64,000 nucleotides of DNA, from NCBI RefSeq assembly GCF_016097555.1, contig NC_054703.1:20223258-20287257 (forward strand). The letters are read 5' to 3'. Numbering within the stretch: position 1 is the stretch's first letter; each line of letters starts with the position of its first letter. The stretch is from Gigantopelta aegis. Lineage: Eukaryota; Mollusca; Gastropoda; Neomphalida; Peltospiridae. The notes below the pieces were generated by a model. That model was not told the origin of the DNA and did not search any database. It saw only the letters and a program-made list of their open reading frames with translations. Below, piece by piece: positions 1 to 53,300 of the stretch. The translations under genes and the position numbers were made by a program.

Positions 1-315
1 TTTCTACAACCCAGTTTTGAATTTCCCACCTCTCTCTATAGACAAATTTATTTCTATTTCTTAATAACCCAGTTTTTTTCTCCCACCTATCACTATAGAT
101 AAATTTATCTCTATTTCTCTACAACCCAGTTTTGAATTTCCCACCTCTCTCTATAGACAAATTTATTTCTATTTCTTAATAACCCAGTTTTTTTCTCCCA
201 CCTATCACTATAGATAAATTTATCTCTATTTTTCTACAACCCAGTTTTGAATTTCCCACCTCTCTCTATAGACAAAATTATCTTTATTTTTCTATAACAC
301 TGTTTTGTCTCCCAC
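1..315 (-). repeat. Minisatellite of the LEO1 exon 12 donor region (about 57-58 bases per unit)
   Basis: About five units alternate between two subtypes, CCCAGTTTTGAATTTCCCAC and CCCAGTTTTTTTCTCCCACC. On the gene strand each unit carries AG|GTGGGA followed by a CTGGGTT-like stretch, mirroring the authentic junction GAGAG|GTGGGAGACAAAAC of exon 12 (donor at 310-315). The array therefore repeats the 5' splice site. Confidence 0.8.
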
Positions 316-502
316 CTCTCCTGGCCCCGGCCTTGTACTTCTTCTTGAGTGCCGCGATGGAGATGGTGTTTTCATCATCCTCGTCCTCCTCGTCGTACCC
401 CTCCAGGTACGATGAACTCATCCCTCGTGCGTGCGCTCGCTCTTTCATCCGCCTCTGCTGGCTCTCACGACGGATAGAAGCTCGCAATCGCTCCTCTTCT
501 TT
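316..502 (-). CDS. LEO1: LEO1 exon 12 (last exon in window)
   Basis: Reads [20 protein letters not shown], then [20 protein letters not shown] and the acidic stretch to [13 protein letters not shown]. Matches vertebrate [18 protein letters not shown] and SASYLEPDRYDEEEE. Phase 0 in, phase 1 out. The donor GAGAG|GTGGGA is copied in the minisatellite that fills 1-315. The remaining C-terminal exon(s) are outside the window. Confidence 0.95.
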
Positions 503-3500: not shown

Positions 3501-6500
3501 CTTTGTTTAACAATACCACTAGAGCATACTGATTAATTCATCATCGGCTATTGGATGTCAAACATTTGGTAATTCAGACAGTCTTTGCAAGGAAACCCAC
3601 TATATATTTCCATTAGCACAAAAGGATCTTTTATATGCATTTTTCCACAGACAGGAAAGCACATACCACGGCCTTTGACCAGTTGTGATGCACTGGTTGG
3701 AATGGAAGGAAATGTTTTATTTAACAACACTCTCAATGCATTTAAATTACGGTTATATGGTGTCGGACATATGGTTAAGGACCACACAGATATAGAGAGG
3801 GGAAACCCGCTGTCACCACTTCATGAGCTACTCTTTTCGATTAGCAGCAAGGGATCTTTTATATGCACCATCCCACATACAGGATAACACATACCACGGC
3901 CTTTGATATACCAGTCATGGTGCACTGGCTGGAGCAAGAAATAGCCCAATGGGGCCCACTGACGGGAATCAATCCCAACCGACCGCGCATCAAGCGAACG
4001 CTTTACCACTGGGCTACGTCCCGCCCTTGGTTGGAATGAGATATACCGAGGTTGTTCGATCCTGTAGCACAAGCACATCAGGCGAGCACTAAACTGACTG
4101 AGCTAAACCCTGCCCCTACCCGATACATGATACGACTATTTGACAACGCACCTGAAGGAGAGTTTCGTCTTGAACACACACTGTCCCTGTAGACCCGTGC
4201 CCTGTCGCACAAACAGATGGTTGAAATCTCCGTGGATCGGCATAATGTAGACGTCAAACACTTCATCTCCAAGATGCAGTGACATGCTAATGAGAAAATA
4301 ATTCACATCATGGTTTTGTCATTTTTGTACATTTATGATATCAATGTGCAATTACAAAGTTAGTCTTGTTCTTCATTGGATATCTGGAATGCTGAAATAC
4401 ATGTGAAGTTTTGGAATAAAACTTTTGTATATAATGAGAGATATGGGGGACTCGGTTACCCCATCCATTGAGATGATGAGTCTATTTGAAATTACAGCTA
4501 AAAAAAAGAAGCTAAAAAGTTTGTTTTATTTAACGATACCACTAGAGCACATTGATTTATTAATCATCAGCTATTGGATGTCAAACATGGTAATTTTGAC
4601 TCGTAGTCATTAGAGGAAACCCGCTACATTTTTCCATTAGCAGCAAGGGATACTTTATATGCACTTCTCAAGCCTTTGACCAGTTGTGGTGCACTGGTTG
4701 GAATGAGAAAAAACCCAATCAGTTGATTGGATCCACCAAGGTGGTTTGATTCTGCTACACAAGCACTCGTCCGACTGAGCTAAATCCCGCCCTAAATACT
4801 AAATATCAATTAAAAAAATTAACGTTATTCTTCAATAAAATGCAGAAAGAGATGTCATTAGAATAAGAATTGCCTTTAATGAGTGACATAGATGCCAAAG
4901 ACTTACCATCCAATAAACTTATCATGGATAAAATTGACTGCTTTGTGACATACAACTCAACATTGCAAGTGCTACTAATAAGTTTTAGTCAGAAACATTA
5001 AAAAAAAAATTAAACCAGTTTTTTGAGGAAATCACTTTTGCTTGTTTTTTTTTTTTTTTTTTTATCCACTTCCCCTTTCCTTTCTCTCCTTTGAATTCCA
5101 TCTCATTTCTTTCCTCCTATCTTTCAACTTCTTTCACTGTCCACCTCTAAGTGACATCCCAGTCATTGTCTCTCCAACCGTGACAGGTGCTTGTATCTGT
5201 GCCACACATCTGTTCCCCTTCAGCTTTTAGCTGTAGGCTTAGTCTGACCACTTCAGGGAGTGTTCAGTAGTTACTTCTGGCACTGTTAAAAGGCACTTGT
5301 AACCACCTACTATGCATCCCTACTACCGGCGGTCGTTAATTAGTGCCGTGGGTCAGACCAGCTTTATTAGCGGCAGAGGACGAGGATGCCAGGTGGGTGC
5401 AGGGAAATACACAGAGACTGCACCCGTGGAGGAAGTTGAGACAGGTAGGCGATGGTGTGGACAGCTCAGAAGACAGAGTCAGAGGAAACTGACAGAAAGG
5501 GTCGAAACAGGCGTGCGAGAAATTGGATTAAAAAAATAAATATTATATATATATTAAGATAATGAGAATGATAGGCAGAGGGTGAAAGATGAATGAATGT
5601 ATGAGCCAGCTTTGAAGGGATCTGAACCACTGTCATCAGCTTGATTGTCCAGCAGACACTTTTGCTTCATAGATACGTTTTAAAACAACTCATAAATGGA
5701 TATTTAATGGCCACTCATGTAATATTCTTTATATAAACAACTCGAGAATAAATGGTATCTAACGGCCACTCGTGTAATATTCTTTATACAAACAACATGT
5801 AAGATAAATGGTATCTAACGGCCACTTGTGTAATATTCTTTATATAAACAACAACTCGTAAGATAAATGGTATTTAACGGCCACTCATGTAATATTCTTT
5901 ATATAAACAACTTGTAAGATAAATGGTATTTAATGGCCACTGGTGTAATATTCTTTATATAAACAACTTGTAAGATAAATGGTATCTAACGGCCACTCGT
6001 GTAATATTCTTTATATAAACAACTTGTAAAATAAATGTTATCTAACGGCCACTCGTGTAATATTCTTTATATAAACAACTTGTAACATAAATGGTATCTA
6101 ACGGCCACTCGTGTAATATTCTTTATATAAACAACTTGTAAGATAAATGGTATCTAACGGCCACTCGTGTAATATTCTTTATATAAACAACTTGTAAGAT
6201 AAATGGTATCTAACGGCCACTCGTGTAATATTCTTTATATAAACAACTTGTAAAATAAATGTTATCTAACGGCCACTCGTGTAATATTCTTTACATAAAC
6301 AACTCGTAAGATTAATGGTATCTAACTGCGACTCGTGACATTTTCTCTACATCAGTGTGTTACCTTCCATCGGACCATCTAACCATTCTGGCATTGCTCT
6401 CTCTCAGTGAGTTCCCGTCAACATCTTTGATTTCGTTTCCTTCTTCGTCTTTCTTATATCTCCAGCGAATTGTATTCTCCACCTACACAAAATACAACAA

Positions 6501-9500
6501 AGGGTTTAAGCTAACACTCGACAATTGTAAATCAAAGTTGAATTTGGCAAATATATTTCATTATTAATTTGCCAAAAGGTTAATTTGAAAATTGTGTCAT
6601 TAAATGTAGATCAACCGCCATTTTAGCTGGCTCACAGTGTATTTTGCCTGTGTATCTGCTTGCATAAGCTCATAACTGAGTTGACTCTCTTGGCAGATTT
6701 TGTTCCTGGCATAACAGTTGGAAAGAAAGAAATGTTTTATTTAACAACGCACTCAACACATTTTATTTACGGTTATATGGCATCAGACATATGGTTAAGG
6801 ACCACACAGATTTTGAGAGGAAACCTGCTGTCGCCACTACATGGGCTACTCTTTCCGATTAGCAGCAAGGGATCTTTTATTTGCGCTTCCCACAGGCAGG
6901 ATAGCACAAACCATAGCCTTTGTTGAACCAGTTATGGATCACTGGTCGGTGCAAGTGGTTTACACCTACCCATTGAGCCTTGCGGAGCACTCATTCAGGG
7001 TTTGGAGTCGGTATCTAGATTAAAAATCCCATGCCTCGACTGGGATCCGAACCCAGTACCTACCAGCCTCTAGACCAATGGCCTAACCATGACATCACTG
7101 AGGCCTGTAAACCCTATAGCTGCCTGCTCAGCCTTTGGAAAAATAGCATCTACATCTAGCCTTTTTACTTCATAAAAGTGACACCAAAAATCCATTATTT
7201 TATATTTGGCACATGGCTGGTCTTGTCGGATTTGTCTCGAGCTGAGTATATAAAGTTTGTTTTGTTTAACGACACAACTAGAACACACTGATGTGCAATG
7301 TGACTTGTTGGTTTTCATAAATGTTTATTTGTTTTTGATCGTTGTGTTGTTCCTTTAGTTGTTACAATGTAACAACATACCATAGCCTTTGATATACCAG
7401 TCATGGTGCACTGTCTGGAATGAGAAAAAGCCCAATGAGCCCACCAACTGTTAATTTGTCTCACTAATTGATGTAACCGATTGTAAAACATCAACCACAT
7501 TAGAGGCTGTACCGACACTAAGTGTTTTAGCTCATCGGTGCCCAATCAAAGAACATGGGATTTGGGCGACAATGGCCTGATTGGGTATTAATACAGGACA
7601 GTGTGTAATTGTTTTGAAAACCTTATATCTGATTTTAAATCGACCATATTTAGTGAGAGAGGGGGATGTCAAAATGAAATTATGTCTCAGTTTAGTATAT
7701 TTACTAAGTGTGGGGAAAAGCGCAAACGTGACACGACTGACAAGACGGAACAACAAAAAATTAAAACTAAATATAAAAAATATGACAAGACAAAGAGAGT
7801 TAGGAAATGTGTACCAACGTGGAAAAACTCATTTACCTGGCTAGAATATTCAGAAGATGAAGGTATAATGTTTTGTAGGATATGTAGAAAATTCCCATCT
7901 ATTTCGGCACAGCCAAACAAATTGAAAAGCCAAAATGCCATGATTCACGGTAGTAACCATTTTCATTTAGACACCATCATGGCACACAAAACGTCTTCAG
8001 TTCATAGGGAATTCGTTGTATTTGATCAAGAAGGGAGTAAAACTAGTAGTACAAAAGAAGGTGGTATACAGTTTGAAGATACATCGATAGGAATGCTCCT
8101 CTCGAAAATGGATAAGTCAAGATTAGACAAGATGACAAAGTCATTCAACAGAGCGTACACATTGGCAAAACATTAAAAACCACTGTCAGATATGCAATTC
8201 CATTGCCGCATCGCATTAAAACTAGACTTGGATATAGGACAAAATTATCAAAACAACGATACGGCACGACTTTTCATAACAAGTACATCGGCATTCCTCC
8301 GAGCAAAAGCTAAGAAAAGGGTTAGGTCAACAAATTTTATGTCACTGCTGGCCGATGGTAGCACTGATAGAAGTGTAAAAAGAACAAGAGACAGTCTTCA
8401 TTAGATTTGTGGGGCGTGACAGACGACATTTGTAGACATTGTCGAAACTGGAACATGCACACGCTTACGGTGTATTTTCTGGTTTGGGCAGCACTTTAAC
8501 CAAATCTGGACTTAGCATAGAAAGTGTTACAAAAGACAAACCAAATAGGGAAGAACCGGCTTTAGTAGGAGTAAACTTCGACGGAGCTAATGTCATGCAG
8601 GGACTTAAAACCGATGTTGTGGCCAAATTCAAAGCAGCAGCACCATACATCATCCCTATACACTGTGTTGCCCACAAACTGGAACTGGCCATCCTTGATG
8701 CGGTGAAGGATATACCCTATCTAGCCAAATTCAAAGCAGCAGCACCATACATCATCCCTATACACTGTGTTGCCCACAAACTGGAGCTGGCCATCCTTGA
8801 TGCGGTGAAGGATATACCCTATCTAGCCAAATTTAAAGCAGCAGCACCATACATCATCCCTATACACTGTGTTGCCCACAAACTGGAACTGGCCATCCTT
8901 GATGCGGTGAAGGATATACCCTATCTAGCCAAATTCAAAGCAGCAGCACCATACATCATCCCTATACACTGTGTTGCCCACAAACTGGAACTGGCCATCC
9001 TTGATGCGGTGAAGGATATACCCTATCTAGCCAAATTCAAAGTAGCAGCACCATACATCATCCCTATACACTGTGTTGCCCACAAACTGGAGCTGGCCAT
9101 CCTTGATGCGGTGAAGGATATACCCTATCTAGCCAAATTCAAAGCAGCAGCACCATACATCATCCCTATACACTGTGTTGCCCACAAACTGGAACTGGCC
9201 ATCCTTGATGCGGTGAAGGATATACCCTATCTAGCCAAATTTAAAGCAGCAGCACCATACATCATCCCTATACACTGTGTTGCCCACAAACTGGAGCTGG
9301 CCATCCTTGATGCGGTGAAGGATATACCCTATCTAGCCAAATTTAAAGCAGCAGCACCATACATCATCCCTATACACTGTGTTGCCCACAAACTGGAGCT
9401 GGCCATCCTTGATGCGGTGAAGGATATACCCTATCTAGCCAAATTCAAAGCAGCAGCACCATACATCATCCCTATACACTGTGTTGCCCACAAACTGGAA

Positions 9501-12500
9501 CTGGCCATCCTTGATGCGGTGAAGGATATACCCTATCTAGCCAAATTCAAAGCAGCAGCACCATACATCATCCCTATACACTGTGTTGCCCACAAACTGG
9601 AGCTGGCCATCCTTGATGCGGTGAAGGATATACCCTATTTAGCCAAATTCAAAGCAGCAGCACCATACATCATCCCTATACACTGTGTTGCCCACAAACT
9701 GGAGCTGGCCATCCTTGATGCGGTGAAGGATATACCCTATTTAGCCAAATTCAAAGCAGCAGCACCATACATCATCCCTATACACTGTGTTGCCCACAAA
9801 CTGGAGCTGGCCATCCTTGATGCGGTGAAGGATATACCCTATCTAGCCAAATTCAAAGCAGCAGCACCATACATCATCCCTATACACTGTGTTGCCCACA
9901 AACTGGAACTGGCCATCCTTGATGCGGTGAAGGATATACCCTATCTAGCCAAATTCAAAGTAGCAGCACCATACATCATCCCTATACACTGTGTTGCCCA
10001 CAAACTGGAACTGGCCATCCTTGATGCGGTGAAGGATATATCCTATCTAGCCAAATTCAAAGCAGCAGCACCATACATCATCCCTATACACTGTGTTGCC
10101 CACAAACTGGAACTGGCCATCCTTGATGCGGTGAAGGATATATCCTATCTAGCCAAATTCAAAGCAGCAGCACCATACATCATCCCTATACACTGTGTTG
10201 CCCACAAACTGGAACTGGCCATCCTTGATGCGGTGAAGGATATATCCTATCTAGCCAAATTTGAGGAAAAAATCAAACTGATTTTAAAATTCTACCGCCT
10301 AAACAACGCCGAGAACACGCTCAGACTGGCAAGATTTTGGAACAAGACTTGGCTCATTTCAGTGGTGTGAAACAGGTACGTCATATTTTATTTATTTATT
10401 TTATTTATTTATTTGTCATTTTCCATGGTAAACCTTGCATTGATAATATGTATAAAGAAATCCCTAAATAAGCTCCAGTTAACCTGTAAAATAGACGAAC
10501 AATTGATTATTTTGTATTTTAAATTTCCATTCAGTATTAATGTATCAAATTTAGTATAACAGCATCATCGGCTGTTCCATTAATTGAACGTGTGCAGAAT
10601 TTCCCCACCATTTCTTAGTTTTTTCTTGTTTTACCACAGGAGGAGTTTGTAATCAACTCTATGGTTAATCTTTATGGTTGCACGTTATACTTATAAGAAT
10701 TTAATAAAAACATTTGTTATTTCTGATACACAGCAATCACATTCATTCAACTGTATGATGATTAAATACATACTGGGGCATAGCCAGAGAGGAAAAACTG
10801 CCATTGACATATATACGTTATTTATGTTATTTTGTAAAATAAAACATGACTTGGTTTTGCATGATGCTATAAATAGCATTTGTAGCGACATTCACGGTGT
10901 AGGCAATAGGCCTACTATAGTCCGTCCCACAGGGAACGCCTTTTTTCATATAATGGAATTAACTACAAGTTATTTATTTCTGAGCCGACTGATTTGTAAA
11001 TTTCACACAAAAATATTATGGTTTTTTTTATATTTCCAAAACACTTGTACTTTTCTTCTTATGTCAAACTAAACTGAAATTATTTACAATTGTTTTTGGG
11101 TTTTTTCAATACAATGATGGAGACAATTATAGTATATAGAGATGATAAAACAATTTACAAACCATTTATTTTTATTTAATTAAAAATACATTTATTTACG
11201 TAATACATTTATTTTGTTAATATTTTATTTATTTATTTATTTATTTTGTTAATATTTTATTTATTTATTTATTTATTTTGTTAATATTTTATTTATTTAT
11301 TTATTTATTATCTTTATTCATTATTTGATAATTATAATTGTAGGTTCATTGGATGGCCAGCAAAGATTGAGCAATAAAGGCGGTGCGAAAAAACTACAAA
11401 GCACAATGTTCTCACGTTGAATCTGCTGCAGCCACCAGAACAGAAACTACCTCCAATAAAGCACAGAACTTCACCAAGGAGATAACAAGTTTCAAATTTG
11501 TAAAGTAAAAGTAGTTTATTTTATTTAACGACGCCACTAGAGCACATTGATTTTGTTATCTTATCATCGGCTATTGGACATCAAATATATGTCATTCTGA
11601 CACTGTCTTTAAGAGAAAACCCGCTGTCGCCACATAGGCTACTCTTTTATGACAGGCAGCAAGGGATCTTTTATTTGTGTTTCCCACAGGCAGAATAGCA
11701 CAAATCATGGCCTTTGTTGAACCAGTTATGGATCACTGGTCGGTGCAAGTGGTTTACACCTACCCATTGAGCCTTGCTGAGCACTCACTCAGGGTTTGGA
11801 GTCGATATCTGGATTAAAAATCCCATGCCTCGGCTGGGATCCGAACCTAGCACCTACCAGCCTGCAGACCGATGGCCTAACCACGACACCACCGAGGCCG
11901 GTAACTTTGTAAAGATGCTACTTATCATGCTTGATGTCCTGTCGATTCTGAAGTCATTGTCTGAGGTAAATTACTCCTAAATTTAATTACAAGCTAAAAA
12001 AATTGATAATTATGACTCATAGACATCAGTTTGTTTGTTTTGTTTAATGACACCACTAGAGCACATTGATTTATTAATCATCGGCTACTGGATGTCAAAC
12101 ATTTGGTAATTCTGACATTTAGTCTTAGAAAGGAAACCTGCTACCAGTTTTCAGCAAGGGATCTTTTATATGCACCAGCCCAGAGACAGGAAAGCACATA
12201 CCACGGCCTATGACCAGATATGCACTGGCTGGAATGAGAAAAATATAAAAATCAGTATTCTCCTGCAATACCTTAAGTTTCAATCTCGCTCGTCCTTCTT
12301 CATCCAACACCTCGTCTTCATCAATTTCGTCTTCATAAGTAGCCGTGTCAAATGGTCTGAAAACAACAAGAGGTTCAGTGAAAAACTGTAAGAGTAATTT
12401 TTTAAATCACTATATATATCAATTACTCCATCAAATCTCAGGAGACCACACTATTACTGTGCTACATCCAATGCAACATCTCATCTCAAAGTGGAATGAT

Positions 12501-28368: not shown

Positions 28369-28444
<76 letters not shown>

Positions 28445-30867: not shown

Positions 30868-31187
<320 letters not shown>

Positions 31188-31809
31188 AGAGACTGATATA
31201 TAGTGATCGATCCATCAGAGAAACACGGTAAATTGTTAAAACGTCCATTTGACTCGGCCTTGCACGATTTTATCGTTAGATTCAGTCAGATGTCTGAAGT
31301 CTCTTAGCCACGCCAAACTGACATTGTTGATCCCCCCCCCCCCCCCCAACAAAAAACAAATGCGTCGGGCATGGTAAGAGATGTTTGCACAGGCTTTTAT
31401 TAGCTGTCTTCTTTGACGTCGACGAAATAAGTGGCGTCCCCTGAATAAAGAGATCCCATAGAGTTAACAATATATAAAGTGAGAGAGGACACGGGCTTTA
31501 GTAAGGTGGCACAAGTCAGATTGTATCTTTATACACATTGAGTAGGACTGAACACATTCAGTTTCAATCTCAAATGCTCAGCTGTGCCCCCCCCCCCCCC
31601 CCACACACTCACAAACCCACCCTGGTTCCTATGGGATTGAAGCATCCATAACGATTGATATTTAGGTTACATATTGTACCATCGTATCAAAACTAACCAC
31701 TAACCACTAACCACTAACCCCGTATCCTGGACAAACAGCCCCGATAGCTGGGGGGGGGGGGGGTGCCCAGGACAGCGTGCTTGAACCTTAATTTTATATA
31801 TTTACTGAG

Positions 31810-32105
31810 TGAGTGCACAGTGCAGTGGACCTAACGGAGAAGCTGTGGGGACCGGCGACGTCGCTAAGGCTGACTGCGGACTTCGTCCACAATACCGGAC
31901 TACCCATCTAACATGGCCGGGATCGCAGAAGAAGAAGAGGAAGGTGTCGGATCTAATGGGGGCCCAGGGATCAGGCCCCCCCATCCCACTCTTAATTTTT
32001 GCGACAGTTATATTTTATTTTAATGTTTTCATTTTTGACGTTGGAGAATCGAGATATCCCTTCGGGAACGTTTGTGGACTTCGGCCACATGTCATTGGGG
32101 CCCTC
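31810..32105. other. Unassigned GC-richer block
   Basis: Contains GGACTTCGTCCAC and GTGGACTTCGGCCAC and a run GAAGAAGAAGAGGAAG. No domain, terminal repeat or tRNA-like box is visible. It could be a repeat or TXNL1 promoter sequence. Confidence 0.3.
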
Positions 32106-32277
32106 TAGATGAATTTTCTGAGTTTTATTGGTAAACGTTAACTTTGTCGGCAATAGGAATTGATTTGGCACATTGGAACCAAATGTGCACGGCTGAGAGA
32201 TGAGAGTTGTGTCCCTTGAAGTAATAAGCGTGTACTTCCGTTTAAATGGTGGTCAAAGTTTCGTGTGATCAACAATC

Positions 32278-32378
32278 ATGAATGGGAACGTTAAAGTATT
32301 AACAGAAGATTCGCAATTTCAACTAGAATTGATTAGCGCTGGCACAAAGCTTGTAGTAGCTGATTTTTCCGCTACATG
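32278..32378 (+). CDS. TXNL1: TXNL1 exon 1
   Basis: [20 protein letters not shown] then [13 protein letters not shown], exiting in phase 2 inside the Trp codon of WCGPC, donor TG|GTATGA. The start is the first ATG and aligns with the human start within one or two residues. Confidence 0.93.
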
Positions 32379-38300: not shown

Positions 38301-41300
38301 CATACTACGGCCTTTATTACACCAGTTACCGGCCTCGGTGGCGTCGTGGCAGGCCATCGGTCTACAGGCTGGTAGGTACTGGGTTCGGATCCCAGTCGAG
38401 GCATGGGATTTTTAATCCAGATACCGACTCCAAACCCTGAGTGAGTGCTCCGCAAGGCTCAATGGGTAGGTGTAAACCACTTGCACCGACCAGTGATCCA
38501 TAACTGGTTCAACAAAGGCCATGGTTTGTGCTATTCTGCCTGTGGGAAGCGCAAATAAAAGATCCCTTGCTGCCTGTCGTAAAGAAGAGTAGCCTATGTG
38601 GCGACAGCGGGTTTCCTCTAAAAACAGTGTCAGAATGACCATATGTTTGACGTCCAATAGCCGATGATAAGATTAAAAATCAATGTGCTCTAGTGGCGTC
38701 GTTAAATAAAACAAACTTTACTTTACTTTTTTATTACACCAGTTGTGGAGCACTGGCTGGAACGAGAAATAGCCCAATGGGTCCACTGATGGGTAGTAAA
38801 TCAAACTGTTTGATGAATTAAAAAAGAAAGAAATGTTTTATTTAACCACGCACTCAACACATTTTTATTTATGGTTATATGGTGTCAGACATATGGTTAT
38901 GGACCACACAGATTTTGAGAGGAAACCCTCTGTCGCCACATAAGCTACTCTTTTATGACAGGCAGCAAGGGATCTTTTATTTGTGCTTCCCACAGGCAGG
39001 ATAGCACAAACCATGGCCTTTGTTGAACCAGTTATGGATCACTGGTCGGTGCAAGTGGTTTACACCTACCCATTGAGCCTTGCGGAGCACTCACTCAGGG
39101 TTTGGAGTCGGTATCTGGATTAAAAATCCCATGCCTCGACTGGGATCCGAACCCAGTACCTACCAGCCTGTAGACCGATGGCCTGCCACCGAGGCCGGTG
39201 TTTGGTGAATTAATACATACATGAACAATGTGTATATTTGCACTGTAGGGCTCTTGATAATAAACTAGTTTAGTATTAGACCACAAATAAATAAAATATG
39301 TGTGAAATAAATCTCAAACAATTTTTAATTATTTTATTTTGGGCTAAATGTGAACATAAATATTTTCTGGAGCATGTGTTATGCTCACTACTGTAGCTGA
39401 TTACGCGGGGCTTCTATAAATAAATAAAATAATTAATCTGCCAGCCATGGGATCAGTGATTAATTTTTTTTACTAGCCACGATTAAATATTCACTGGCCC
39501 TACTTTACTTAAAATAGTTAATACAATTTTACTAAACAGTAGTAATAATCAGATATGTCATTTAAAGAGGGAGATAGAGCTTAAAAACACTACGGTTGGG
39601 GTGCGGTCAGGATATTCATATTTACAAAATAGACTTAATTGCAACACTTGACAGTTTTGTTTTTCACTAGCTGTCAGGCATGGCAATAGTTATTTACTAG
39701 CCCAACATTGAATATCACTAGCCATGGGAGTGGGGCTACCATAATCTAGAAGCCCTGTCTGGCATGGCAATAGTTATTTACTAGCCCAACATTGAATATC
39801 ACTAGCCATGGGAGTGGGGCTACCATAATCTAGAAGCCCTGTCTGGCAAGGCAATAGTAGTTATTTACTAGCCCAACATGAATATCACTAGCCATGGGAG
39901 TGGGGCTACCATAATCTAGAAGCCCTGTCTGGCATGGCAATAGTTATTGAATATCACTAGTCATGGGACTGGGGCTACCATAATCTAGAAGCCCTGTCTG
40001 GCATGGCAATAGTTATTTACTAGCCCAACATTGAATATCACTAGCCATGGGAGTGGGGCTACCATAATCTAGAAGCCCTGTCTGGCATGGCAATAGTAGT
40101 TATTTACTAGCCCAACATTGAATATCACTAGCAATGGGACTTGGGCTACCATAATCTAGAAGCCCTGTCAGGCATGGCAATAGTAGTTATTTACTAGCCC
40201 AACACTGAATATCACTAGCCATGGGACTGGGGCTACCATAATCTAGAAGCCTGTCTGGCATGGCAATAGTTATGTACTAGCCCAACATTAAATATCACTA
40301 GCCATGGGAGTGGGGCTACCATAATCTAGAAGCCCTGGATTATGTCTGCATTTAAGTTTTACTTTACGTCTGTCACTGTTGTGTTTCCGCTTTTCACTTA
40401 ATTGACACTGATATGATATCACATGATCTTCTAGATGTTTTTACATTATGTAAATGTATCCTTTGCGAGCCCATGTCACCTTTCAGTCATTTAGATGCTG
40501 CACATAAAAGATCCCTAGTTGCTAATCAGAAAGAAAGAAAGAAATGTTTTATTTAACGACGCACTCAACACATTTTATTTACAGTTATATGGCGTAAGAC
40601 ATATGGTTACGGACCACACAGATTTTGAGAGGAAACCCGCTGTCGCCACTTCATGGACTACTCTTTCCGATTAGCAGCAAGGGATCTTTTATTTGCACTT
40701 TCCACAGGCAAGATAGCACAAACCATGGCCTTTGTTGAACCAGTTATGGATCACTGGTCAGTACAAGTGATTTACACCTACCCATTGAGCCTTGCGGAGC
40801 ACTCACTCAGGGTTTGGAGTCGGTATCTGGATTAAAATTCCCATGCCTTGACTGGGATCCGAACCCAGTATCTACCAGCCTGTAGACCGATGACCTAACC
40901 ACGATGCCACCAAGGCCGGTCTAATCAGAAAGAGTAGCCCATTGTGTGGTGGCAGCAGGTTTCTCCTATCATTATCTGTGTGGTTCTTAACCATATGTCC
41001 AACGTCATATTTAACCATATTTAAAATGTGTTGAGTTTGTCATTAAATAAAGCATTCCTTCCTTCCAGGGCTTCTAGAATTTTTAAAAAATCCACTAGCC
41101 ATGGGATCAGTGATTTGAAACATTTACTAGCCACGATTAAAAATTCACTAGCCCTACTTTACTTTAAGTTAATACAATTTTACTAAATAATAGTAATAAT
41201 CGGATCTGTCACCTATAGAGGAAGATAGAGCTTAAAAACACTAAGATTGGGGGGTTGGGGTGGGGTCAGGATATTCATATTTACAAAATAGATTTATCTG

Positions 41301-44300
41301 CAGCATTTGAAAACAAAAAACACAGCCTCAGTGGCATCATGGTTAGGCCATTGGTCTACAGGCTTCCGATCCTAGTCGAGGCATGGGATTTTTAATCCAG
41401 ATACCGACTCCAAACCCTGAGTGAGTGCTCCGCAAGGCTCAATAGGTAGGTGTAAACCACTTGCACCGACCAGTGATCCATAACTGGTTCAACAAAGGCC
41501 ATGGTTTGTGCTATCCTGCCTGTGGGAAGTGCAAATAAAAGATCCCTTGCTGCTAATTGGAAAGAGTAGCCCATGTAGTGGCGACAGCGGGTTTCCTCTC
41601 TGTAACCATATGTCTGATGCCATATAACTGTAAATAAAATGTGTTGAGTGCGTAGTTAAATAAAACATTTCTTTCTTTCTTTTTGACATGGCATAGCATG
41701 GCATGGCAATAGTAGTTATTTACTAGCCCAACACTGAATATCACTAGCCATGGGAGTGGGGCTACCATAATCTAGAAGCTCTGTCGGGTATGACAATAGT
41801 AGTTATTTACTAGCCCAACACTGAATATCACTAGCCATGGGAGTGGGGCTACCATAATCTAGAAGCCCTGCCTTCTTTCAATCAGTTATGTCTACTAAGC
41901 TTAAAACATGCCTTCTCCAGTTCCAGTTTTTATGTCTGTTGGTTAAATGATATATTATTTGTTTTAGCTTATCATGAGTATTGCCTTCAACCAGCCTGTA
42001 AAGATCCACTCGCTGAAGATCCATGGACCTGAAGGTATGTGTAGAATGTATTTTGAGTTGCAGAACACCAAATTAATTTCTTCCTAGTCAAAGATAATGT
42101 CATTCCACCAAATCTCTTAAAGGTATCCTAAACATATTGAAATATGTTGTATTAACAAGAGAAAGCTACTAGGGGTTTCACGATGCATCGATGTATCACG
42201 ATACTACTGCTGACAATATGATACATGATACCCTTGCTTGTGTAGCGATTCTTATTTTGACCATATATCAATTCCTGTATTAATTCCATATTCATTTACC
42301 AACACCAATTTGTACTGGTATGTACATATTGACAGGTTATTTTCGTGACACAAAAATAAGCAACAGTGGACCGAGAGTATGTGCATGTCTATGGAGTGGT
42401 ATTTCTACATTAAAACTTTCTATAGACATTACCTGTCCTCAAACAAGTGCACCTCCCCCCCATGCAAGTGGTCTGGTCCGAACATCCCAACAGCCAATGG
42501 GATGGCCTAAATTCTTCTACTGCATACTGCTCTCTAGTTCCGGTCACATGACTGTAACTTCCTTCTTTTTCTCTTCGCTAAAGTGTCTGGACGTCCTTTT
42601 GCTTGGCTCTGTTTGGAGTCAACTTTTTTATAAGACCTTTGGTTTTGTATTCGTGTTTGGGTGAAATGTTTTTCACCTTCGTTTTCATTAGCTTTCGTAT
42701 GTTCTTTTCGCGTATTTCGCTTGACTTTCCAAGCGTTTAATTACATGAAATGTTGTTTTAATGTTGTCGTGTCAGACGCCATTTGCAAAATGGTGTCTGT
42801 GTTGACTGGCTTTGTGTTTGGGTGAAATGTTTTTCACCTTAATTTTCGTTAGCTTTCGTATGTCTTTCGCGTATTTCGCTTGACTTGCCAAGTGTTAATT
42901 ACATGAAATGTTGTTATATCGCCGGTTGTCGTGTCGGACGCCATTTTGCAAAATGGCGTCTTTATTTACCGGCTTTGTATTTGTGTTATGGTTGGTTTTT
43001 CTTTCTTTTCACAGATTGAAAAATTACTATTATCATATCTGATAATGTTCAGGCGACTAGTTCGAGCGTGTTACGCTGCAAGAAGTTAGTGCCTGCGGCG
43101 ACCCACACGACTTATGTCCAGGTTGTCGTGTTCGTGTGGCCTCACTTCTAGATGCGACCTTTGTGCGGGCTTGTATGATGTCACGTTCGCGGCTTACCTG
43201 AAGGTGGTGTCAGCGAGGACCAAGAAGGTGGAATCTTCGAGGACCAAGAAGGTGGAATCTTCGCCTTCGATTGCTTCCGTGGCGGAAGTGTTACGTTCAA
43301 TTCTACCGACAATGCTGGAAGAAACAATGGCGTCAATGGCGACCTTACCCAAACCGGCGGGTTCGGGGTCAGGTCCGGTTCCAGTCCCCTCTTCAGGGGG
43401 TGCGGCTTCTTCAGCTCCACCGATACCTAAGATTTCGGATGACACGCCTGCGGTCTCTACGCAGCCCTCTAAGAAGCCGGCTCATTCAGATAGACGCTCC
43501 ACGGATTCCAAGGCTCACCGATCTTCGGCGGGGAAGTCCTCTTCGGCGCATCGGAGCCGGGACCGTAGCCGTTCCACATGACCTGTACGGCTCCCTACGG
43601 GTTCCACAGATCGTCAGCGCCAACCTTCAGTTGATGTGGCTTCCAAGGCCTCCGAGGGCTAGACGGGACCATCCACGGTCCGGTTAACCGGCGGCTTCCA
43701 TTACGGTACATCGATTGACCTGTGCTCGAGTTCTACGAGTCTTGGTGATGAAGCACCTGCGGCATCTGTCATTGAAGAGCCCGACTCTACGGACCATATG
43801 ACTATGAGGGATTGCTTGGCAGCCGTCTAGGACATGTTGCCGTCCTTGCCACATCCAACGACGATGTGGTCATCCGTTCCTTGGTATCCACACGGGACCG
43901 CCCACGGTCCGGTTCTCCGGTATCTCCATCGGGCCATGACCAGAGCGACTGGCTTGTTCACGGGTGCTACGTGACTTTCTGATGATGTATCGGTTCTTGC
44001 GGTGCTGGAAGATCTGGATGCGGCAGACCACCTGTCACTGAGGGATTGTCTGGCTGTCATATCTGGTATGCTACCGCCGCTGGCCCATCCACCTGTTTCA
44101 GCCAAAAAGGGTCCGGTTTCAGCCAAAAAGGGTCCGGTTTCAGCCAAAAAGGGTCCGGTTTCGATGATCGCCACGGAGGTTCCACCGGCAGATGTTGGCT
44201 GCCACAGGCCCCCATCGGTTTACACGGCTACCAGTAACCGGCCCGTGCGGATCGTTGTTCCAGCAAGCAGACGGAGCCCTGTAATGAACTGGGAGAGATT

Positions 44301-47300
44301 CGGCTCACCGTTCGGTACCGTCGTCCCGTGATCGATCGAAGTGGTGCAGCGTCCAGGGTTCCACCGGCTCCTGACGGGACCGTCCATGGTCTGTGTTTCC
44401 GATTGCAGCCAGTACATTGGATCGAAGTGCCTGTGCCAGGTTACTGACTGATTTTCCAGATGATGCGTCAACACCTTCCGTTATAGAAGATCTGGACGCA
44501 GTGACCCACATGGCTGTGACTGATTGTCTCCCGTCTTCAACCTATCCTTCAACGGTGTGGCGCCGGCTTTGGATGACGCTGTTTCCGGCGGGACCAGACG
44601 TCTTCCTAGAACTTACAGATTGGCACGTCGATGGCTTCAGTTCAGCGTACATGTACATGGCGACCATAACTCCTCATGTGCAGGATGCCAGAGGATATGC
44701 CTTGTTCCAGCCGTCGACTTTGATGTTGGTCTACCTTATATCTTCCGTGACGTCGATGTGCACTACGATTGCACACTATCGTCAACCGACTTGCCTGAAG
44801 CGATCCATTCTTGACTTTCAGCACAAGCCGGTAATCTTGGCAGACCTGTGGTCTACATACGGCTCTTTGCCGTGAAGGGGTTCGACGTTACAAGTGTTCT
44901 GGGTTGGTGACGAAGACAGTCTACTGGTCCGGTCACTTGTGTTGAGATCCCATGCACCGATGTTCGAGGAAGGTTCAGCGACATTCGGCAGATCGTTCTC
45001 TATATCCGGTGGCGATGCAAGACAGTCGCTACTTCCGCTGGTTCCGGAAGTTATCCAGTTGCCATCGCGTGGTACGGGGATCATTGCGGCTTATCAACTC
45101 ACTGACGTTCACTGTTGTTACCGCCAGAGTTCGTGACCGATGCTGTCTAGATGGTCTCTGCTGCTGTTTCGCACCGGGTGGTGTGACGACCGTAGATTTT
45201 AGCCGGTTGCTGTTTTGCGTTGCTTCACTTCCAGGTATATCGGGCATGTAGCGTAGCGAGTTGCTATGCTGTCTTGGCTCTTGCCTATATCACGGGGTCG
45301 CTGTTTCCGATGTCTTGATTCCTGAATCACTCTATTACTGTTTCATGAAGTATCATTGCAAGAGTAATTTTGATGTTGGCGCAACATTTGACGCTTAGAG
45401 GTCGCGGTATCCAGTTTGTTTCTGAATCCATGCATTCAGTACAATAACGCAGATTTGCTGATCCGGTTACCAGTCGCCTTGCAGTCCAGTCCCTGTTGGT
45501 GGCTGTGGTTTCCAGATGAAGCCGATCTACACATCAGTCTGTTGGAGATGTTGGCAGTTACGTCATCCTTCATTGGCGAGAGATGCCATCAGGCGCCTCT
45601 CTCATGGTAGCCACAGACAGTACCACCGCAGTGGCTTATATCAACCGTCGGGGCGGAACCCACTCCAGCAGTCTGCTGCAGTTGACTTATCGTCTCTACA
45701 AGCTGGTTGACGAGATTCCGTTGCAACTTCGGGCTCGCCATATTCCAGGGGTTTCCAATGTACTAGTCGACACACTGTCTCGGCCGTTGTCTCCACATCC
45801 GACGGAATGGATGCTCCATCCCGAAGTGTTTCGATGGGTGTGCGACAGACTTTGCACACCAAACATCGATCCTTTCGCCACATGATTCAACCATCAGCTG
45901 AGGGTTTACGTGTCTCCGGTGCTGGATCCCGAAGCTCTGGATCTCGACGCATTGGCCATCAGCTGGGAACAGATGGACGCATACGCTTTTCCTCCACCAA
46001 TCCTCCTTCCAAGGGTGCTTCAGAGGTTTCAGCTGTACCATTGTCGCCTGTTACTCATTGCTCCGATGTGGCCATCCAGGATGTGGTATCCAGATCTAAT
46101 ACGTCTTGCCGATCCACATCCTTTATCGCTGCCAGACTGGGATCATCTGTTGCTGCATCCCACGTCAAGACTATACCATCCACATCCGCAGTTGTTCCAA
46201 CTGCACCCGTGGACTGTATCTCCAAGAGTTTGAGGAAGAAAGGTTTTTCTGCACAGTCTATGGCGGCCATTTTGAAAGCGCACAGATCATCTACTACTGC
46301 GGCTTACAACGTCAGATGGCTTTGTCTTCACCGATGGTGTGTCCGGCAAAAAACTCAACCCTCAGACGATTCAAATACCTCGTCTTGCTGATTTTTTGCT
46401 GTATCTGCGGACCACTTTACGATTGAAGGGGTCTACCATCGCTGGGTACGTTTCGGTCATCGCTACTGTTCGCTGACGAGATTCCGTTGCAACTTCGGGC
46501 TCGCCATATTCCAGGGGTTTCCAATGTACTAGTCGACACACTGTCTCGGCCGTTGTCTCCATATCCGACGGAATGGATGCTCCATCCCGAAGTGTTTCGA
46601 TGGGTGTGCGACAGACTTTGCACACCAAACATCGATCCTTTCGCCACACGATTCAACCATCAGCTGAGGGTTTACGTGTCTCCGGTGCCGGATCCCGAAG
46701 CTCTGGATCTCGACGCATTGGCCATCAGCTGGGAACAGATGGACGCATACGCATTTCCTCCACCAATCCTCCTTCCAAGGGTGCTTCAGAGGTTTCAGCT
46801 GTACCATTGTCGCCTGTTACTCATTGCTCCGATGTGGCCATCCAGGATGTGGTATCCAGATCTAATACGTCTTGCCGATCCACATCCTTTATCGCTGCCA
46901 GACTGGGATCATCTGTTGCTGCATCCCACGTCAAGACTATACCATCCACATCCGCAGTGGACTGTATTCCAAGAGTTTGAGGAAGCGTGGACTGCCATCT
47001 GAAAGCCAAGATCATGTACTACTGCACTTACTGGCTTTGTCTTCACCGATGGTGTGTCCGGCAAAAAAACTCAACCCTCAGACAATTCAAATACCTCGGT
47101 GATTTTTTCCTGTATCTGCGGATCCGATGAAGGGGTCTACCATCGCTGGGTACGTTTCGGTTTGTTCGTTGTCACTACTGGATCGAAGTATCGGGTATTC
47201 CTGAGATCCGATGATCAAAGGGTTTCTTGGCCACACCGGTTTCGGCCACCAAGATGGGACCTGAATCTGGTGTTACGAGCGTTATCGACCGTACCTTATA

Positions 47301-50300
47301 AGCCGATCGAATCCTCTTCCCTGCAAGACTTGACGCGGAAGACAGTGATTTTACTCGGTTTCGCCACGGCTGCCCGTGTCTCAGAACTCCATGCTCTTGA
47401 TGTAGACTTGGTACGTTTTCACCGAGATCGGCGTGCAGTCAACTTGGGGTTACTCATGAACTTTGTTGCAAAGAATCAGTTACCAGACCAAGCGCCTCGT
47501 TCGTATGCTGTGCAGGCCCTCTCCTCTATCGTTGGTCCAGCGGACGTTGAGGACTTGGCGTTGTGCCCTGTTAGAGCCCTGCACCAGTACATCGAGAGGA
47601 CCAGATCTTTTCGACAACATCGCAAAAGACTTTTCCTCTCCTGTAACCAGAGTCGGTTGAGGGATCTTACCAAGAACACGGTGGCCACCTGGATCTGGTC
47701 TTCTATCCTGACCGCCTATCAGAAGGAGGGTTTACCTGCTCCGTCTGCTTCTAATTCGCATGACCTCCGTGCCTTGGCTGCCACGATGTCCCTGCACTGC
47801 AACACACCCATTCAGCACATTATCACTGGTTGGTTCTGGGCTACGGACTCCATCTTCGCCAACTATTATCTGAGGGATGTCTCCACAGAAGACGTTGAGG
47901 GGTTCCATCATCTGGGTCCGGTTGTTGCTGCACAGACTCTGTTGAATACAAGCCGTCCTCGTCGCCGTTGATGTCTGTCTGATTCTGGGCTGCATACCGA
48001 GATGTCCATCGAATCGACAGATGAGGATTGCTTAGACTTTTGTTCTTTTGCACAGTTCACGTACTGGTGCCGGAACTTTTGTCTCAATAACCTTTACCCT
48101 GCACTGCATGTGGTTATTGGTTGTCGTTATTGAACTAACAGATCTTTGGTGTACTAGACAGAAAACACTCGGGGGTCTTGTTTTGTTCAATGTTCTGACG
48201 GATGCACCTCATTAGGTTGTCGCTTGTTATTGAAAAACTATAACACTTCAATACGTGAGGGTTACCTAACACCTGCATCCCTGGTGGCTACGTCTTCCCA
48301 CCCTGTCAGAACCAGCATGAGATGTGGCTTCCGCCTCCTGGTCCATGTGTTCTATGAGCCGTACCTGCCACTGCTGACGGATGCCACCATTCTGGTTGTT
48401 GTTACTAACATCACCTGCATTGGTCTGTGACGGGCATCCCTAGGAGAAGAGCTTACCAAGGTTGGCCTTATTCTTCCACTAGTCAGCCTCTTTCCGGTTG
48501 GGGAGTTATCACAAGCATCTACGGATTTCGGCACCCACCACCATCTGTTGAATGCTGCACTTGTTTGAGGACAGGTAATGTCTATAGAAATGGAGAAAAC
48601 TTGGGAGTGTTTTCTCTTTTATAGATACATTACCTGTCCTCAAGATTTCATCCTGCCCGGGCCTCCCCGCTTCCTGTTCTCCGTGTGATGCGCTCAGGGA
48701 AAAAGAAGGAAGTTACAGTCATGTGACCGGAACTAGAGAGCAGTATGCAGTAGAAGAATTTAGGCCATCCCATTGGCTGTTGGGATGTTCGGACCAGACC
48801 ACTTGCGTGGGGGGGAGGTGCACTTGTTTGAGGACAGGTAATGTATCTATAAAAGAGAAAACACTCCAAGTTTTCTCCATATGTTTAATCAGTGACGTTT
48901 CACTTTTATCAGGTTTACTTCTTATTTTTAAATCCCTTCACCTAGGCTTCAATTTCTTGTTTTACTGTGAATCAGGTATCCTATCGTGATACATATCGTA
49001 TCGTGAGGTAGGTGTATCGCGACACCCATAAAAGCCCATTGCAGTCATCGGATGCATTTAACAACATTGTTATTTACTTTATCCTTTGTAGGCTCCAATA
49101 ACAAATCATTGCTGTTTTGATGATGATATTCATAGAGCTTGGTGCATGTACAAACATTTCCTTTCTGTTTCCACGCTAATGCTGATGCACAGCTTCTGTA
49201 CTCTTGACTTCAGTGGACTTGATTTGAGTTTGGAGTTTTTCTTCTCCGAGGAGAGTTTCCTTACTAGGATTCTGAGCCTCTCCAGCCAAGTTTTGATTTT
49301 GGAGTTTGATTCCCCAAGACAGATGTCTTTCTTGACTCTCGTCTTATGTCTGTCTGGTCCATATTAGTCTAGTCTCTACCTTTTGCCCAGTCCAACTTGG
49401 GTGACCCTACAAGGAGCTGATCCTCCAGCTGCCATAGCTCTCCGAGTCATTGACACATGCAAGCTACCTCACCACGTCAAGCAGTGGACCATGTGATAGA
49501 TTGCTGTTTTAATTCCTATAGTTGTTTCTAATGTTAAAATACAATGATGTGGCCAGTACTTTTTATTTTGTAAGCACCCTCAAAAACTCACACGTGGCAG
49601 ACAGACGTGATGGGTGTCATCTGCAAAAACGATTGCTTGTTTGTCTGGCACAAAGTAAAATAACTTCTTTTCATACAGTTTTAGTTAATAATAAGATTTT
49701 GTGCAGAATGAAGTACCATTTATGACATTCTTGGCATGTGCTAATCTCCTGGTAATCTGATTGTCCGTTCTTGACTTACTTCGATGCCTGCAGTGCTGTT
49801 GTTATGTTTAAGCCCTGGATTGGTAACAAAGTATATGAACTGTGCTGTTCTGTTTGTAGACAAGGGCCCGAAGACCGTGAAGCTGTTTATTAACCAACCG
49901 ACGACTCTCGACTTCGACGCTGCAAGCTCGAGGGATGGAGTACAGAACTTAGAGTAAGGACTGTTCCGAAATAATCACATGGGTGGGCTGGATCCACTGA
50001 AAAGTCGAATTCTGTACAAGAAAGGAAAAGATACTTGTTTAACAACACATTGTCTTATTTTAAACTATGCAGGTTTGGGGGTTGAAGATATGCTTACTTC
50101 AACATTTGAGAGGATGGAGGGATGGACGGACGGAGAGAGAGAACGAGGGAGGGAGAGAGAGAGAAAGATAATGAGAGAGACTCAGACATTGATTGAGAGA
50201 GAGATTTATATAATATGTAACCAGTGACAAAATGTATTTAAATATACTGCTTGTCTTCAATGATTTGTTTTTCTCCCTTTAACAAAGTCAAAAACCAACA

Positions 50301-53300
50301 TATCTATATAGGTATTACTGTGTTGGCACTGGCAACATTAAATTTAGAAAACTATGTAAGTCCTAGACAAATAAAACTTGGTGTATAGTTGCATCTATGT
50401 ATGTTTATTTGAATGTATAATTTACTTTTTAACAAAATACATTAATTAGCATTTATTTCCCTTTGTTTCTCACAAACTATTCAATCTAGTACCGAGGAGG
50501 TCATTCAAACTTGGTTTGTAATTGGATCTGTAGATCTTCATCTTAAATACATATTTCAAAAAATTAATTTGTTAAATTAAATTTTGTACCTTTTAAATTT
50601 GTGCTGTAATTTTTTATTTTAGCCCTTATATTAATTAATTATGTTTTAAAAACATTTTAAATATTGAGATGAATATCTGTGGATACAACTGAATTTAATT
50701 TTACACATACATGTATACTGTAGTTATCAAAGAAATCCCGGTGTTTGATGCTTACTGATTATGTTTTATTTTTAGACTGAAATTGGAAGACCTCAAAGAA
50801 GGATCTCTCATTCCTCTAAGATACGTCAAGTTCCAGAATGTACAGAATGTTACCGTAAGTGTAAAGAATATTACCGTAAGTGTACAGAATATTACTGTAA
50901 ATGTACAGAATATTACCGTAAGTGTGAAGAATATTACCGTACGTGTGAAGAATATTACCGTAAGTGAAGAATATTACTGTAAGTGTACAAAATATTACTA
51001 TGTGTACAGAATATTACCGCAAATATACAATGTATTACCATAAGTGTACAGAATATTACCATAAGTGTACAGAATACTGGCAGTATACAGAATATTACCA
51101 TAAGTGTACAGAATATTACTGGGAATATACAGAATATTACCATAAGTGTACAGAATATTACTGGGAGTGTACAGAATATTACTGCAAGTGTACAGAATAT
51201 TACCACAAGTGTGCAGAATATTACTTTAAGTGTACAGAATATTACCACAAGTGTGCAGAATATTACTTTAAGTGTAATGAATATTACTTTAAGTGTACAA
51301 AATATTACTGTGTACAGAATATTACAGCAAATATACAATGTATTACCATAAGTGTACAGAATATTACCATAAGTGTACAGACTATTACTAGGAGTATACA
51401 GAATATTATCATAAGTGTACAGAATATTACCATAAGTGTACGGAATATTACTGGGAGTGTACAGAATATTACTGGGAGTGTACAGAATATTACTGGGAGT
51501 GTACAGAATATTACTGGGAGTGTACAGAATATTACCGTAAGTGTAATGAATATTACTGTAAGTGTACAGAATATTACTGTAACTGCAGAATATTACTGTA
51601 ACTGTACAGAATATTACTGTAACTACAGAATATTACCATAAGTGTACAGAATATTACCATAAGTGTACTGTAAGTGTATACAATATTACTGCAAATGTAT
51701 TAAATGTACTTGTTGTTTTTCAGATATTTGTCAAAGATAATCAGGGAGGAACAGAGACGACACAAATAGACTTTCTTGGATTGATCGGTAGTCCAGTGGG
51801 ATCAACAAACATGTCTGACTTTAAAAGGGTAAGTCATTGTGTAAGGGAAAGATCAACAAACATGTCTGACTTTAACTCTTTCACCACGACAGGCCGGTAT
51901 ACCGGCTAGCGATATCCAGTGCCTCTCAGCATGACAGGCCGGTTTAGCGGCTTGTAACACCTGTTCATATTTGGCGCCGAGTGACGCGTCAATATTATAA
52001 TTAGACAAAATCTCGCGCGACCATAGCTGCCATGTGACACACTGTAATGGCTGCGCCCATCTTCTAGCCAATTTTTAATGAGTTTTTCCAAGTTTATACT
52101 GATATTCTGACTGTAATTAAACATGAACCGAGGTGACGAAATTTCGTCTGTTGAAAACAATGGTTGCGATTCAGATGACGGGTTTTCCCATGATGAAATG
52201 TGGGATAATATGGACTTTGGTGCATTTGATTTAATCGAGATTGGCGATCGTGAACGAAATGCCATTCAACATGGCAATTTAGAAGAAAATGATACCGATG
52301 ATGAGTTACAAGATGACTTGCCACTGTTTTACCACGCGCCTGAGTTTACCTGGACACATGAGCCATATTCGGTTACCTGCAGATCAACGTTTACTAAAAA
52401 TCCGGGGCCTGTAAAAGTGTTTGACGTCAACACAAATGCCATAGAGTACTTTTCGCTATTTTATTCCAATACAGTGTGTGCAAAAAATTGTGGAATTTAC
52501 TAACATGAATGCCAAAAAAAAGCGTGATACAGATCCTGCTAACAACAAAGGTGTGTGGTATGATGTTTCTGTTGATGAAATGAAAGCTTATTATGGCTTG
52601 TTAATTTTGCAAAAGCATTGTAAATATATTTTTAAAATTATAACTGGAATGTTAATTAATTAATTATCCAACAAGAAAAACATTTGTACTGTTGTTTTTT
52701 TAAATTACCAGTCCTACCTACTCAAATAGGTGAGTAATATGCATAGTTTACCTGTAATTACCAGATTTATACCTGTTGAATCAAACATTTTTAAAGTATT
52801 ATTTTTTTATCTAGACAGCCGTCCATTCACCTTTCTGGAAATGTATAGCCTATAACTAAAATTAATGATAAAACATTTAGTTTTATCCTTTAACAAACAT
52901 GATCATAAATCTGCTATTTAAACTCAGTGTGCAGGGAAGGTCAAGGCTGTAAAACTTAGTGGTGAAAGAGTTAAAAGGGTAAGTCATTGTGTACAGAAAA
53001 GATCAATAAACATGTCTGACTTTAAAAGGGTAAGTCATTGTGTAAGGCAAAGATCAACAAACATGTCTGACTTTAAAAGGGTAAGTCATTGTGTAAGGGA
53101 AAGATCAACAAACATGTCTGACTTTAAAAGGGTAAGTCATTGTGTAAGGAAAAGATCAACAAACATGTCTGACTTTAAAAGGGTAAGTTGTTGTGTTTGG
53201 AAAAGGTTGATATATTGAACAATAAAAATGCAAATATCAATGTAGTTTTCTTCAATTTACTTAAAATTATTCTTTTTAACTCACTTTGGTTTTTGCATTA

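Follow-up and report, generated by a model that had tools for sequence, protein, structure and literature searches.

Minisatellite-like tandem duplications across exon-intron boundaries have been described in amphioxus, where they were named "mirages" (PMC3087553, PMC3902484). They are present in Adh3 and in the globin genes BflGb6 and BflGb9, and one of the two reports adds PGBD5 and cites troponin C (PMC3902484). According to the accessible parts of these papers, the units are 10-160 bases long, donors as well as acceptors are affected, and many, but not all, copies keep the splice signals. The mirages were reported gene by gene, and their origin was termed unclear (PMC3087553, PMC3902484). 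Therefore, the sequence-only reading of the 64-kb stretch of mollusc DNA analyzed here (the window), which knew of no described class of repeat for its arrays, has to be corrected in this respect.

The arrays share several features with the amphioxus mirages. The unit spans the exon-intron boundary, at 6 of the 39 splice junctions in the window and, as judged by eye, at exon 13 of LEO1 outside the window and at 7 of 109 junctions of a dynein sample. The units are of minisatellite size and differ by locus, here between about 20 and 173 bases (21, 32, 51, 58, 98, 133, and 169 bases in the window and at LEO1 exon 13). Both kinds of boundary are affected, namely five donors and one acceptor in the window, one further donor at LEO1 exon 13, and four donors and three acceptors in the dynein genes. 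Many but not all copies keep AG or GT, here 32 of 65. In contrast to amphioxus, the organism is a mollusc and thus belongs to another phylum, and the frequency was counted at 148 junctions and compared to intron interiors. For amphioxus, the features of mirages also include undisturbed regular splicing, length polymorphism between haplotypes, and somatic instability, whereas the present analysis is based on the sequence of a single assembly. Neither mirages in molluscs nor a genome-wide count of mirages was among the literature matches listed, which cover the literature in part.

Several other systems are related in one aspect or another. The minisatellite of the human interferon-induced gene 6-16, presumably IFI6, reportedly contains multiple splice donor sites; it would be a tandem array that offers several donors, as the arrays described here do at the level of sequence, but at a single locus and with a reported use of several donors. 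Human variable internal tandem repeats in segmental duplications include minisatellites at exon-intron boundaries, from which, according to the report, new introns can form (PMC2812944). In the accessible part of that report they concern recent paralogs and growth within exons or introns, and a clustering at the junctions of ordinary genes was not seen. Intron gain by tandem duplication, as far as the available text of two sources covers it, involves a duplication that crosses an intron-exon boundary (PMC4974935, PMC3443670); in contrast, the length of the TXNL1 protein discussed below is unchanged, its alignment is gap-free, and the copies are confined to the old intron. The polyubiquitin gene UBC contains a tandem array of dual-specific splice sites, in which, according to the part of the report at hand, each unit is a coding monomer bounded by AGGT (PMC10809524), whereas the units described here are mostly or partly intronic, and the junctions at LEO1 donor 4, LEO1 acceptor 6, and TXNL1 donor 7 are devoid of AGGT. 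No boundary-spanning case was found in the available part of a report on an earthworm metallothionein gene with intronic minisatellites (PMC12783039).

Duplicated junctions in LEO1 and TXNL1

The window is derived from an assembly of 1.149 Gb and comprises 21 exons with 39 splice junctions of the two genes LEO1 and TXNL1, which were modeled from splice signals and reading frame. LEO1 is encoded on the minus strand (316-30517), with exons 12 (316-502) to 1 (30475-30517) within the window. Exons 1-12 form a stop-free reading frame of 780 amino acids, a shortened form of the model matched the Pfam family Leo1 (8.6e-53), and exons 13 and 14 were located beyond the left end of the window. Exon 3 has a weak donor, the exact position of which is uncertain. 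TXNL1 is encoded on the plus strand (32278-55469) and has nine exons with a stop-free reading frame of 288 amino acids. It matches the TXNL1 of solved structures, which we take to be the human protein (5.5e-99), without gaps over exons 7-9, and its nearest named proteins are molluscan (Haliotis, Patella, and Lottia, 67-69% identity), with 68% identity to the annelid Capitella. When ten long open reading frames located in the 200 kb surrounding the window were searched with Pfam, a methyltransferase, an RRM, and transposon domains were found in four of the ten. No Pfam family above the cut-off was obtained for a transposon fragment, a 34-residue segment that occurs repeatedly, or a stretch rich in GC, and a PDB search with a 29-residue piece of LEO1 gave no match.

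Six junctions of the two genes had been proposed to be duplicated in tandem, and all six duplications were indeed seen with TRF, local alignment, and the gene models. On the minus strand, the donor of LEO1 exon 12 is part of an array at 3-320 (boundary 315/316, unit 58/115 bases, about 5-7 exon bases). The donor of exon 7 is present in two copies within 14731-15016 (14900-15016 and 14731-14847), which have a spacing of 169 bases and a local alignment score of 179; the 117 aligned bases consist of 86 exon and 31 intron bases, and this case is absent from the TRF list. A faint trace of a third copy was observed near 14641-14669. The array at the acceptor of exon 6 extends over 16843-17258 (boundary 16850/16851, unit 98 bases, 8 exon bases), and that at the donor of exon 4 over 19163-19610 (boundary 19596/19597, unit 32 bases, about 14 copies, 14 exon bases).

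In TXNL1, on the plus strand, an array of about 40 copies of a 21-base unit includes the donor of exon 7 (50839-51668, boundary 50854/50855, 16 exon bases). At the donor of exon 8, the founder and an interrupted second copy of a 51-base unit are located at 51800-51875 (boundary 51828/51829, 29 exon bases), and TRF found the other 4.6 copies at 52971-53205. The second copy is split by a transposon on the same strand (51876-52970), which has TTAA target copies and inverted ends; the perfect inverted repeat of 17 bases includes the TTAA, with 12 bases of the element proper. Over two alignment segments (452 and 368 bases), the transposon is 96% identical to a copy at 18220-19104. Because the insertion sits in the TTAA of the second copy, at least two copies of the 51-base array are older than the transposon.

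The units of the six arrays differ (58/115, 169, 98, 32, 21, and 51 bases), and no sequence common to them was noticed when the listings were inspected. This argues for six separate events, in agreement with the previous proposal of independent origins. The founder units include exon bases, as had been stated, but "few" was too narrow a description, because the number varies from about 7 to 86. In all six arrays of the window the junction of the gene model is located in the copy at the exon-side edge, and the extra copies extend in the direction of the intron.

A seventh case was found outside the window at LEO1 exon 13, where a 133-base unit reaches from the sixth exon base through the donor and is present in three near-identical copies, as judged by eye; at the donor, a copy 133 bases away reached a score of 48 out of 48. 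At the acceptors of LEO1 exons 13 and 14 an intron-side copy was looked for, and none was seen. Further arrays lie close to junctions. On the minus strand, a 56-base array (5692-6337) starts 26 bases into the intron after the donor of LEO1 exon 9, the junction itself being single, and a 21-base array found by TRF (17257-17980) ends 56 bases from the donor of LEO1 exon 5. On the plus strand, a 77-base duplication, also found by TRF (35757-35911), ends 17 bases before the acceptor of TXNL1 exon 3.

Tandem arrays are generally error-prone in draft assemblies, and it might be argued that the arrays are assembly artefacts. This is hardly credible, because the copies are mutually diverged in most arrays, one array contains a transposon with its target duplication, and the pattern was seen again on several contigs.

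The splice signal GT or AG is kept in 32 of the 65 extra copies of five window arrays, when partial copies and LEO1 donor 7 are left out. Retention differs between the arrays, from 4/4 at LEO1 donor 12, 3/3 at LEO1 acceptor 6, and 5/5 at TXNL1 donor 8 to 9/13 at LEO1 donor 4 and 11/40 at TXNL1 donor 7. In the 40-copy TXNL1 array, variability is highest at four positions, namely the final base of the exon and the three bases with which the donor begins. A CpG located there may account for part of this variability, and the copies are not independent of one another. One of the driving forces proposed for the arrays was selection for additional splice sites or decoys. Such selection would agree with the retention of the signal in every counted extra copy of LEO1 donor 12, LEO1 acceptor 6, and TXNL1 donor 8, and with the reading frame at TXNL1 donor 7, where the use of the first three further copy boundaries would add 7, 14, and 21 residues in frame. 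However, retention is uninformative in little-diverged arrays, in which most bases are kept anyway, and the incomplete retention at LEO1 donor 4 and TXNL1 donor 7 together with the high variability of the TXNL1 donor bases leaves the proposal unsupported, so that we regard it as very improbable. The copy variation speaks against decoys being retained by selection and would fit a weak selection to remove them. Relative to the solved-structure protein, TXNL1 has no insertion at either of its two duplicated junctions, and that protein itself has none at the site where the inner copies of donor 7 would extend the chain. The conserved protein length implies that the exon-side copy would be the working splice site.

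A second sample of junctions from dynein loci

The second sample consisted of 13 loci from the same genome with genes encoding AAA_6, presumably a dynein heavy-chain domain; 110 exon matches to AAA_6 were found genome-wide with the Pfam profile, and mostly compact loci were taken first. Every locus was picked before its own repeats were inspected, and three loci joined the sample once the first ten had been analyzed. Introns were placed from the continuity of the profile match together with phase and splice signals. From 60 introns, five unresolvable ones were dropped, and an apparent intron of locus L040 was rejected, because its far side turned out to be a duplicated exon copy; the true donor was substituted, and 109 junctions remained. 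The gap in the AAA_6 profile was 0 at 48 of the 55 entries of the intron list; these 48 include the donor of L040 that was added by hand. Together with the window, the sample comprised 15 genes of one genome and 148 junctions, for which intron-interior windows served as controls.

In the first ten loci, 3 of 82 junctions had a score of at least 24, compared to 0.98% of the background positions. All ten dynein junctions with scores of at least 15 were inspected by eye, and clear mirages were found at seven of the 109 junctions. The four donors are those of L030 (64 bases, three copies), L033 (about 20 bases, with a score of just 19), L039 (many copies, the opposite side having scored 16), and L040 (173 bases, four copies), and the three acceptors those of L038 (about 74-81 bases), L040 (about 130 bases), and L041 (62 bases, three copies). 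By TRF the units have 56-173 bases, in addition to the unit of about 20 bases of L033. A second junction of L038, which is merely a (GT)n microsatellite, and a marginal second junction of L041 were not counted among the seven mirages; both are still among the 16 junctions flagged in the edge counts below.

Array edges around exon ends and in intron interiors

Minisatellites might be so abundant that some of them must straddle junctions, without exon ends being special. In the window, whether six junction arrays exceed chance depends on the null chosen, and the window statistics are post hoc. The window has 27 TRF arrays in 55 kb, which occupy 14.7% of the gene span, and when whole arrays were placed randomly, 3.8 junction overlaps were expected, so that at least six have a probability of 0.16. 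When the founding unit was placed randomly, 0.8 junctions were expected, and TRF alone finds four (P 0.0067); with the inclusion of cases found by other means, the P values are 0.0007 for at least five and 0.00015 for at least six. A TRF rerun gave 4 cases versus 0.99 expected (P 0.018), and looser settings gave 5 versus 1.96 (P 0.049), the fifth case being LEO1 donor 2, which is not one of the six. A one-sided copy with a local alignment score of at least 20 was present at 5 of 39 window junctions versus 2.7% of 3332 background positions; in this test, the score of LEO1 donor 12 was just 17. The founder-unit test with TRF in the dynein sample is also in agreement with chance overlap, as 3 arrays were found versus 2.76 expected (P 0.52); with looser settings the numbers were 10 versus 5.73 (P 0.067).

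The comparison with matched intron-interior windows speaks against chance. Between positions -10 and +80, 16 of 109 dynein junctions had array edges, compared to 33 of 492 windows in intron interiors (Fisher P 0.008). For the window, the numbers were 13 of 39 junctions and 49 of 836 interior windows (P 6e-7), a tally in which the 21-base TXNL1 array is entered at both ends of its intron. When the labels were shuffled within each locus, 6.45 flagged junctions were expected for the dyneins and 2.78 for the window, and in neither case did any of 4000 shuffles reach the observed number. With a threshold of 30, the values were 12/109 versus 23/492 (P 0.0005) for the dyneins and 10/39 versus 33/836 for the window. 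A dilution of intron interiors by transposons was considered as a cause and rejected, because windows with dispersed repeats carry more array edges, not fewer. Dispersed was defined by a second match inside the approximately 340 kb analyzed, which applied to 252 of 664 windows. Interior controls without dispersed repeats are poorer in edges (dynein 15/316, window 18/508), which makes the excess stronger. Against dispersed-repeat windows alone, the result was significant for the window (13/39 versus 31/328, P 0.0002) and not significant for the dyneins (16/109 versus 18/176, P 0.17).

The dynein excess weakens under stricter filters, as would be expected if chance overlap contributed to it. Without the (GT)n microsatellite and one double-counted 20-base array, 14 of the 16 flagged dynein junctions remain (4/4000 shuffles), and a stricter low-complexity filter leaves 11/109 versus 24/492 (10/4000 shuffles, Fisher P 0.036). 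The last three dynein loci contain half of the flagged junctions: they had 8/27 versus 27/210 (82/4000), and the first ten loci 8/82 versus 6/282 (3/4000). Under the strict filter, the respective numbers were 7/27 versus 20/210 (53/4000) and 4/82 versus 4/282 (195/4000). The excess of array edges is thus real in most forms of the test and modest in the dyneins. The sequence-only reading had proposed to search for an enrichment of array edges within 30 bases of splice sites; the dynein sample was positive with the zone from -10 to +80, and less so under the stricter filter. A genome-wide count of a donor-pair pattern gave a higher value for the control than for the test pattern and was therefore uninformative.

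The dependence on distance shows how closely the duplications are tied to the junctions. With a score of at least 24, a one-sided copy was found in the window and the dyneins at 4.7% of the junctions at position -20, at 6.8% at -10 and 0 (10/147), at 6.5-8.6% from +10 to +60, at 6.2% at +80, and at 3.5% at +100 and +130. Farther out, the share was 0-2% at +160 to +600, 3/35 at +800, and 1/25 at +1000. The junction itself differed from the pooled rate from +80 on with a P value of 0.007, or 0.0025 when both orientations were averaged. In the narrow zone from -10 to +10, the window had 6/39 versus 22/836 (P 0.001), and the dynein result was weak with 7/109 versus 17/492 (P 0.13); compared to non-dispersed controls (7/316) its P value was 0.04, and compared to dispersed ones (10/176) it was 0.49. 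Therefore, to call the arrays "seeded on junctions" was too sharp, because one-sided duplication is about equally frequent from -10 to +80 and lower from +100 on, although the narrow test holds in the window. The excess comprises a broad zone around exon ends, and its pinning to the junction itself is not established. The falling off of one-sided duplication with distance and the excess over matched windows, which persists in the shuffles under the strict filter, make chance overlap a rather doubtful explanation.

Origin and significance of the arrays

An excess near exons could also result from survival, if arrays were born evenly along introns and persisted longer near exons, where insertions and deletions would strike the exon. 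This is plausible in view of purifying selection on exons. However, divergence is no greater in the arrays near junctions than in those of intron interiors, with a median match of 86.5% versus 86.0% (20 versus 22 arrays, P 0.73) and, with looser settings, of 75% versus 73% (33 versus 47 arrays, P 1.0), both comparisons being of low power. The equal copy identity, in small numbers of arrays, gives no support for a greater age of the arrays near junctions, and we consider survival bias unlikely. Copy numbers near junctions were slightly higher under the looser settings alone (3.0 versus 2.6, P 0.05).

We think it probable, though by no means certain, that the arrays are mirage-type minisatellites that arise at a higher rate close to exon ends than deep within introns and that have their exon-side edge held by purifying selection. 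According to this proposal, a short tandem duplication would arise on a stretch that spans an exon-intron boundary or lies within about 100 bases of it, possibly by break repair with fill-in or by template switching. Selection on the exon would preserve the copy at the exon edge, which would continue to act as the splice site in use, and additional copies would pile up on the intron side via unequal exchange or slippage. These intron-side copies would be removed together with the intron at splicing and would mostly drift. We infer the neutrality of the copies, the mechanism of expansion, and the origin of the excess in births rather than in survival. The young L030 array has a five-base match between its left flank and the end of the unit, and LEO1 exon 13 a match of two bases; both were seen by eye and are just a hint.

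A more far-reaching version of the birth model, which we put forward tentatively and hold to be possible rather than likely, is that, in this lineage, the boundaries between exons and introns act as mutational hot zones of tandem duplication, and that a factor tied to the boundary triggers DNA breaks or switches of the template at distances of up to about 100 bases. Candidates for such a factor are transcription, RNA-DNA hybrids, and a step in chromatin or base composition; the sequence-only reading had named R-loops or bound splicing factors as a possible cause of instability at junctions. If this were true, several percent of the junctions would bear arrays that reshape introns and feed new splice sites.

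Taken as a class of repeat, the arrays are not new. Mirages have now been found in another phylum, and their frequency at junctions as well as the excess of array edges have been counted. With mirages at 7 of 109 dynein junctions and a measurable edge excess, an oddity becomes a countable process, and an attraction of junctions for tandem duplication has been made testable. This has a bearing on the lengthening of introns, the origin of cryptic splice sites, and the formation of new introns.

Transposons and other repeats

A DNA transposon with TTAA flanks and 12-base inverted ends is present in two copies in the window (51876-52970 and 18220-19104), and the copies are 96% identical over aligned segments of 452 + 368 bases. 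Judged from the TTAA target, the element is presumably piggyBac-like; a Pfam search with one of its fragments yielded no match. TRF identified a tandem array of 16 copies of a 102-base unit in a LEO1 intron (8622-10261). Read by eye, the unit is an open 34-residue repeat, for which Pfam returned zero families above the cut-off, and the surroundings of the array look like a transposase relic. A GC-rich stretch in a TXNL1 intron (44001-48000, 52% GC) contains broken coding-like frames and is probably a retroelement; a 900-base piece of it had no match in Pfam. Three further arrays, with 53- and 84-87-base units (22295-22679, 39671-40337, and 41703-41870), have CTAGCC and ATGGG-like motifs in common, as recognized by eye, and apparently represent a single dispersed satellite-like family.

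Arrays at exons 13 and 4 of LEO1

Exon 13 of LEO1, left of the window on the same contig, carries a tandem array (about 20220970-20221390) of three nearly identical copies of a 133-base unit, which extends from exon base six through the donor. The intron end of this unit falls at a point where, by eye, a short dispersed element seems to begin. Within exon 4, nine copies of a 45-base in-frame repeat (window 19678-20080) immediately adjoin the donor array of that exon.

Base variation in the TXNL1 exon 7 donor array

In the 21-base array (window 50839-51668) variation is highest at the donor bases, with little across the remaining unit. This pattern may come from decoy donors being eroded, or from decay of a CpG.
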